Source: Bacteroidales bacterium (lineage in GTDB: Bacteria; Bacteroidota; Bacteroidia; Bacteroidales; JAIPAP01). From it: a stretch of DNA of 41,206 nucleotides. Below, one piece after another: positions 23,174-24,993 of this stretch. The stretch is taken from contig JAIPAP010000023.1 of NCBI GenBank assembly GCA_021740045.1, positions 1 to 41,206 of the forward strand, read 5' to 3'. A program made the translations under genes and the position numbers. Position 1 is the stretch's first letter. The number at the start of each line of letters is the position of its first letter. The notes under the pieces were generated by a model that saw only the letters and a program-made list of their open reading frames with translations, was not told the DNA's origin and searched no databases.

Positions 23174-23277
23174 GGGGTTAATTTAGTTACTTTGCAAATA
23201 TTTATTTTATCTTATGTTGAATATATTTATTATATTTGCAAAACAAATTTTGTGTTGAACCAATAAGAGGCGGAAAA

Positions 23278-24762
23278 GTGAAAAATCATAAGATTCCAAT
23301 CAATTATCACATTGAAGAGTTGAAGACAAAGAATGATTTGTCGGAGCGCACAAAGAATATTTGTTTAAACGATTCTTTGAAAACCTTGTACGACATTTTG
23401 GTTTTTTATCTTAAGCATGGGGACTTCACGTCCATTAAAAATTGCGGTAAGAAATCAAACATGGAACTGTCATACCTGGCTCATAAATTTACCGAAGATT
23501 ATGGGCTTACGTTAGAAAATCTAAAATTAAGTAAGGACGAACGAGCCTTTGAGGACTTCAAGCTGTATTGCTATAAGAACTTCAATGTTCCTTCGGAAGA
23601 ATCGGAGCCTCACAAAAAAGCGTTCTTGCAAAAAGATTTTCCCTTCTTTAAGTACCTGATGATGTCGTTTACTTACATTTTAGACGAACGTGAGTATTTC
23701 ATCTTTAAACAGAATTTTGGATATTTAAGAGGGAAATCCAAGCTTACGCTTCAGGCAATTGGTGATAAGTATAATATTACCAGGGAAAGGGTACGGCAGA
23801 TCTCGCAAAAGGTACCGCTTAAACTGGAAAAGATACTTTCATTATACAACACCGATCTTGATTTTATCAAAGATTATTTCAATTATCAATTAAAGGTTAA
23901 ACGCGATTTTATCCTCATCGACGGGGAAACCGCCGACCATATTAATGAAAAGGAAGAACTGGCGTTAACCCAGAAGTTTTATGCCTTGGCATTCGGCGTT
24001 CTGCACCGGGATAAATATCATTTATTCCAAAACAGGTTAAAAGATTACGAAAACTATTACCTGGTTAAAAAAGAACTGGCTAAACGCTTTGATTTCCGTG
24101 CTCTTTACGATACTATTGAAGAAAAGCTGGATTCCCGAATCGAAGCGGACTATAAGCTTCCCATCGATACATTGATCGAGGATTTCATACATCCCGATGC
24201 TTCGGAGAAGTATTATAACAAGGTGAAATCGGTAACCAAGCGTATAGTTACCGAAGGATTCGGCATTAAGCTTGACCGTGAAAATAATTTGCTGATCAAG
24301 CGTAATACCATTAAGAAATTATCGGAATACATCCTTGAGATCCTTCGTGATTACAAACGCCCCATGCACCTTGAAGAGATTTGCGAGGAGTTAAAGAAAC
24401 GGGCCACCAAGATACCACCGAATATCGAATCATTACGGTCATCTATTTTAAGCATCGAAGAGATCATGGCCATCGGCAAAACTTCCACCTACTCACTTAA
24501 GGAGTGGGGTGAGGTAAAAACCGGCACCATTAAAAATATGGTTCGGGAATACCTCGAGCAAACCGATGAACCCAAGCATATCGCTGAGGTTAGTCGTTAT
24601 GTGAGAAAATACCGTAAAACCAACGATAAAAACATTATGTCGAACTTGAAGCTTGATAAATCCGATACCTTTAGATTTTATAAAAAAGGATATGTCGGGC
24701 TCAGGTCGAAGGATTATTCGAATCTAAAAGGGGAACTTGCTAATTTAAAACCCCTTGGATAA
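23278..24762 (+). CDS. Multidomain transcription-related protein: RpoA-CTD-like region + sigma-70 region-4-like HTH + HARE/RpoE-delta-like winged helix regions
   Basis: ORF track starts at TTG 23236, but that TTG sits within a TATATTTG -7-like element; GTG at 23278 after AAGAGGCGG is preferred. Motifs: LSERTKNICLNDSLKTLYDILVFYLKHGDFTSIKNCGKKSNMEL; LTLQAIGDKYNITRERVRQI; EYILEILRDYKRPMHLEEICEELKKR...SLRSSILSIEEIMAIGKTSTYSLKEWG. Confidence 0.75.
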   Translation: MKNHKIPINYHIEELKTKNDLSERTKNICLNDSLKTLYDILVFYLKHGDFTSIKNCGKKSNMELSYLAHKFTEDYGLTLENLKLSKDERAFEDFKLYCYKNFNVPSEESEPHKKAFLQKDFPFFKYLMMSFTYILDEREYFIFKQNFGYLRGKSKLTLQAIGDKYNITRERVRQISQKVPLKLEKILSLYNTDLDFIKDYFNYQLKVKRDFILIDGETADHINEKEELALTQKFYALAFGVLHRDKYHLFQNRLKDYENYYLVKKELAKRFDFRALYDTIEEKLDSRIEADYKLPIDTLIEDFIHPDASEKYYNKVKSVTKRIVTEGFGIKLDRENNLLIKRNTIKKLSEYILEILRDYKRPMHLEEICEELKKRATKIPPNIESLRSSILSIEEIMAIGKTSTYSLKEWGEVKTGTIKNMVREYLEQTDEPKHIAEVSRYVRKYRKTNDKNIMSNLKLDKSDTFRFYKKGYVGLRSKDYSNLKGELANLKPLG

Positions 24763-24787
24763 GACGAGCTGTTAGTTTAAACAATGG

Positions 24788-24824
24788 TTCCGCCTTTGCT
24801 CCTAAACAAAGGCGGAATTTTTTT
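24788..24824 (+). terminator. Strong rho-independent terminator
   Basis: Perfect 11-bp stem TTCCGCCTTTG-CTCCTAAA-CAAAGGCGGAA followed by TTTTTTT. Confidence 0.92.
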
Positions 24825-24993
24825 GTTCCGGTATTCACAAAAATGAAATGTTATTTGGAAGAGAATTATAAATAAGCAATTCCTCCTTATATATGAGATC
24901 CGGCAGTACAATAATTTGGTATTTTTGCCGTGTTTAATCAAACACTGGGGAATAACAACTCACCCGGTGATAAATTATACTTAAGTTGATGCT

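Follow-up and report, generated by a model that had tools for sequence, protein, structure and literature searches.

A protein of 494 residues encoded in the window (the whole stretch of 41,206 nucleotides that was analysed) carries in a single chain an alpha-CTD-like domain, a sigma-70 region 4 (sigma4) and a HARE-type winged helix. Profile searches, partly through relatives of the protein, support this chimeric composition, which the preliminary description had proposed. We hold with moderate confidence that it is a promoter-binding regulator reusing the upstream DNA-reading surface of RNA polymerase (RNAP): the part retained is, as judged from its sequence, the DNA-reading surface of alpha-CTD and of sigma4. 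The features of the locus, and what each is based on, are the following.

23231..23238, + strand: Bacteroidota-type −7 promoter box TAnnTTTG (TATATTTG) (sequence)
23278..24762, + strand: gene, 494 aa, GTG start (ORF listing)
23326..23517, + strand: alpha-CTD-like helix-hairpin-helix domain, aa 17-80 (class A profile, hhalign, relatives over the Pfam cut-off)
23662..23841, + strand: sigma-70 region 4 domain, aa 129-188 (Pfam Sigma70_r4, 1.2e-6; PDB sigma4 chains)
23779..23802, + strand: −35-recognition helix TRERVRQI, aa 168-175 (conservation in alignments)
23890..24081, + strand: winged helix a, aa 205-268 (AF2 models of the window protein and of a Patescibacteria relative, pLDDT 92 for the latter)
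24082..24312, + strand: winged helix b, aa 269-345 (the same two AF2 models)
24313..24513, + strand: HARE-type winged helix c, aa 346-412 (HARE-HTH over the cut-off in relatives)
24514..24711, + strand: winged helix d, aa 413-478 (the same two AF2 models)
24786..24826, + strand: intrinsic terminator, 13-bp stem then T run (folding of 24760-24832, −22.7 kcal/mol)

The open reading frame extends from the GTG at 23278 to a stop ending at 24762. A TTG found further upstream, at 23236, overlaps with the −7 box and makes an improbable start codon. In the closest relatives, which we call class A (a clade of proteins of about 490 aa from the order Bacteroidales, including the window protein), the start codon is GTG or ATG and lies at about the same point. 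GTG is the apparent start in around half of the class A genes, that of the window included, and perhaps serves translational control. A TAnnTTTG box was found upstream of 17 of the 18 family genes examined, the window gene being one of the 17, so that transcription of this gene from a promoter of its own is very probable. Together with the hairpin and T run downstream, the box supports the independent transcription unit suggested at the outset.

Sigma region 4 was recognised in the window protein alone, with a Pfam match above the cut-off and matches to PDB sigma factors down to 9e-6, as expected from the region-4-like HTH reported initially. Its recognition helix TRERVRQI is invariant over a 15-sequence alignment ranging from Bacteroidota to Patescibacteria, and is identical in the RpoD-like factors of the same genome. 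Within class A the helix is nearly invariant, with T168, R169, E170, R171, R173 and Q174 strictly so. R169 and E170 are, in an alignment made by eye, the counterparts of sigma4 R584 and E585, which contact bases at −32 and −33 (PMC5101437). Recognition helices are altered in distant members of class B, a group of longer relatives (mostly about 590-820 aa). The C-terminal end of region 4 appears, by eye, to be replaced, and docking of the window protein on the beta-flap is therefore doubtful. Of the sigma-70 family features, region 4 with its −35 helix is thus present, and region 2 gave no match in the window protein with either Pfam or NCBIfam, in line with what had been noted before.

For the N-terminal domain, the window sequence alone gave 0.018 with the NCBIfam rpoA model, below the cut-off for alpha-CTD. 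Relatives exceeded the Pfam cut-off for this domain (L035, 1.7e-13; L145, 1.2e-9; L149, 1.5e-8; L146, 1.5e-5). When a profile of the 16 class A N-termini was compared to 9,383 ORFs, family members ranked first and were followed by the 13 RpoA present (E-values between 9e-4 and 0.018), among which a single other ORF was placed. A direct hhalign comparison of the class A domain with RpoA C-terminal domains gave an E-value of 1.7e-5 (probability 78.6). On these profiles, the closest relative of the N-terminal domain outside the family is RpoA. Across 13 genomes, the alpha-CTD model matched RpoA and family members, plus a single other protein in genome G003, weakly (0.019) and below the cut-off. 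The alpha-CTD-like N-terminus of the preliminary description is therefore upheld by the relatives and by the ranking of RpoA directly after the family, although not by the window sequence taken alone.

R24, N55, G57 and K59 fall, in an alignment made by eye, at the positions of E. coli R265, N294, G296 and K298, and R24, C56, G57 and K59 are invariant in class A. R265, N294 and K298 are minor-groove contacts of alpha-CTD (PMC5101437). Overall, the residues predicted to provide the minor-groove grip of alpha-CTD and the −35 reading of sigma4 are largely invariant. The RNAP alpha N-terminal assembly domain was searched for with Pfam and NCBIfam in the window protein and gave no match; a separate rpoA is present in the genome. 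At four loci (L010, L142, L196 and L197) we also saw proteins of 205-350 aa in which alpha-CTD-like domains occur in tandem and no sigma4 was found; they are possible related regulators.

AF2 models were obtained for the window protein (pLDDT 69, moderate confidence) and for its Patescibacteria relative L038 (pLDDT 92, pTM 0.79, high confidence). Judged by secondary structure, each has four winged helices in tandem after sigma4, whereas two C-terminal ones had been anticipated. The HARE-like segment also proposed corresponds to winged helix c. Here the window protein remained below the Pfam HARE-HTH cut-off (13.2 bits for 25.9 required, E 0.12), but its class A sibling L006 (26.9 bits, 6.7e-6) and most Patescibacteria relatives tested were above it, and the stretch is homologous between class A and Patescibacteria proteins (hhalign, 2e-21). 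Mean identity within class A is 0.59 for winged helix d, the most conserved module, 0.57 for c, where 16 of 67 positions are invariant, and 0.29 for b, the least conserved. SelB, through its winged helices in tandem, was the best Foldseek match of the whole window model (7.7e-4), ahead of sigma factors; TM-scores were mostly low, so that Foldseek supports the modules and not a whole-fold match. The L038 model retrieved many sigma4 chains, including that of 3n97, a crystal with alpha-CTD and sigma4 together on UP/−35 DNA.

Relatives were collected by an alignment-based scan of genome contigs, a single-protein scan having given none. Of the 295 genomes sampled in the order, 16 (that of the window among them) carry class A, and 31 have any family match at 1e-10. 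Class A forms one clade in the tree (support 100/100), and its genes hold a constant position behind rplI and a gene for an RNA methyltransferase (identified by sequence motifs). That methyltransferase gene immediately preceded the class A gene in 13 of the 15 loci for which the upstream flank was seen, and for the most part the locus is an ordinary ribosomal-protein neighbourhood. Two pairs of closely related class A members gave dN/dS values of about 0.04 (0.056/1.337) and 0.02 (0.027/1.187), from which we concluded that class A is under strong purifying selection.

A core made of sigma4 and the four winged helices, devoid of alpha-CTD, occurs in 112 of the 192 Patescibacteria genomes (match below 1e-50), and is colinear with class A over 303 columns (hhalign, E 2e-21). 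This core did not figure in the preliminary description, and neither did the Dnd-linked relatives treated below. In most of the Patescibacteria loci seen, the core gene adjoins an unnamed membrane-protein-like gene. This conserved gene follows the sigma4-HARE gene in L036, L038, L039, L043, L047 and L076, and two representatives, each scanned in Pfam and NCBIfam, had no match; a VirD4/TrwB-like ATPase gene is sometimes nearby. Elsewhere, members were sporadic in the rest of Bacteroidota and found in 4 of 201 Chloroflexota. Viral contigs yielded 36 loci (among the matches listed, mainly the sigma4 region was covered, and none was full length) and phages two weak partial matches; the family is therefore not evidently phage-encoded. 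Among plasmids there was one distant relative, a 656-aa hypothetical protein of Segatella copri, and no match with a class B query. Identity with an MZA protein was considered and rejected, PADLOC naming only MzaA, through sigma4.

How such a protein might act can be sketched as follows. Promoter binding, which we infer, would begin with the alpha-CTD-like domain gripping an A/T-rich, UP-like minor groove, while sigma4 would read a −35-type element, the two domains lying side by side as in RNA polymerase. The four winged helices, the HARE-type one included, would extend or select the site. Since region 2 was not found, the protein would neither melt DNA nor have sigma activity on its own, and would rather tune transcription at the promoters so marked, RNAP being either occluded or assisted. 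The predicted role of RNAP regulator or nucleoid factor is plausible. Against a promoter reader, the folds HhH and HTH are widespread and might bind DNA with no connection to promoters; the altered helices of distant class B members, the replaced-looking C-terminal end of region 4 and the moderate confidence of the window model count against it too.

A different role is suggested by some class B relatives. In L144, L145, L239, L240 and L252, the class B gene is followed by DndD and then by a DndE-HerA fusion (DndD, 1.4e-92; DndE, 5.8e-12), in constant order and on the same strand, and cassette members share 43-59% identity with their L145 counterparts across the five loci. Reading by eye around the five cassettes, we did not recognise DndC, DndA or DndB in the stretches covered. 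PMC10853773 describes DndE-HerA fusions next to ATPases of the DndD type, and the portion consulted makes no mention of the class B gene alongside them. In the tree, the four Dnd-linked members present do not form one clade, and their terminal branches are all shorter than those of the 12 unlinked members (1/1820 by our count), a hint that the Dnd link is old and that unlinked copies are drifting. At L254:8363-14000, sequence reading places a YgjP-like peptidase gene and an HsdR-like restriction gene next to another class B gene. The family may then consist of sensors of modified or foreign DNA stemming from defence systems, with the HARE-type winged helix as the reader and class A as a domesticated copy, an explanation we regard as possible but doubtful. 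The constant cassette of the five genomes, the short branches of its class B members and the HsdR-like neighbour in L254 all speak in its favour, as does the proposal, in PMC10853773, that HARE-HTH reads modified DNA. This HARE reading of modified bases is however itself largely predicted, the cassette is absent from the majority of class B loci seen, and class A sits in its mostly ordinary ribosomal-protein neighbourhood. Furthermore, DndE gave no match in any of the 16 class A genomes, the window genome included, and the neighbours of the window gene differ from the cassette; the defence link therefore concerns a part of class B, not the window gene. It is distinctly unlikely that both roles are combined, with the HARE-type domain of a promoter reader sensing DNA modification, so that transcription follows the modification or invader state, Dnd-linked relatives paired with DndD and DndE-HerA, and the Patescibacteria core acting as a general regulator.

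The remaining explanations concern the use made of the DNA-binding modules. A nucleoid-type or generic multi-site DNA binder, in which HhH and HTH modules are past any promoter role, would fit with six predicted DNA-binding domains in tandem, and with SelB being a better match to the whole chain than sigma factors. We nevertheless consider it unlikely: the base-reading helix of sigma4 and the groove residues of alpha-CTD are both kept, which is unexpected for nonspecific binding. PhyR has a sigma-like domain described as altered where promoter and core are contacted, and acts as a decoy for an anti-sigma factor. That the window protein be a sigma mimic of this kind would agree with its sigma-like domain outside a full sigma factor, yet is highly improbable, the recognition helix being invariant here and the promoter- and core-contacting regions altered in PhyR (as the portion of PMC8103513 consulted describes). 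The same portion of that source provides a precedent for sigma4 and sigma2 residing on two proteins, as in SigO-RsoA of B. subtilis, and sigma4 is well kept in the present family. Even so, we hold it very unlikely that the protein is the sigma4 half of such a split factor, given that no gene for a separate region-2 partner was recognised by eye beside the gene in class A or Patescibacteria loci.

If the promoter-binding regulator is the correct reading, the face with which RNA polymerase reads promoters would also exist in bacteria as a free-standing copy. In one Bacteroidota order this copy would be under strong selection, and its core would occur in more than half of the Patescibacteria sampled, a group with very small genomes. 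Promoters could then be controlled by a new route that does without a sigma factor, and through the Dnd-linked relatives a promoter reader would be connected to DNA modification and defence.

Several known systems share parts of this architecture. PglW of type 2 BREX resembles the window protein by an alpha-CTD-like domain followed by three winged helices; it has nuclease, kinase and ATPase-like domains, and sigma4, present in the window protein, is not described for it in the portion of PMC12839542 consulted. With sigma-70 factors, the region 4 fold and its −35-reading helix are common, but in the window protein region 2 was not found and region 4 is fused to winged helices. With RNAP alpha, the shared element is the HhH C-terminal domain with its DNA-contact residues, the alpha N-terminal domain not being found here. 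RNAP delta (RpoE) and HARE-HTH proteins have the HARE-type winged helix in common with the window protein, which has four winged helices and, by sequence reading, no acidic tail. A functional test of the family was not found in the literature. Calling the system little-described was fair, although a 2012 work of Aravind and Iyer on HARE-HTH reportedly mentions proteins of bacteria that unite features of RNAP-alpha with those of sigma. The family was probably noticed before: an alpha-CTD-like domain, sigma4 and HARE-HTH in one chain are reportedly common to those proteins and to ours. What we found in addition is the array of four winged helices, the fixed class A locus, the Patescibacteria core and the Dnd cassette.
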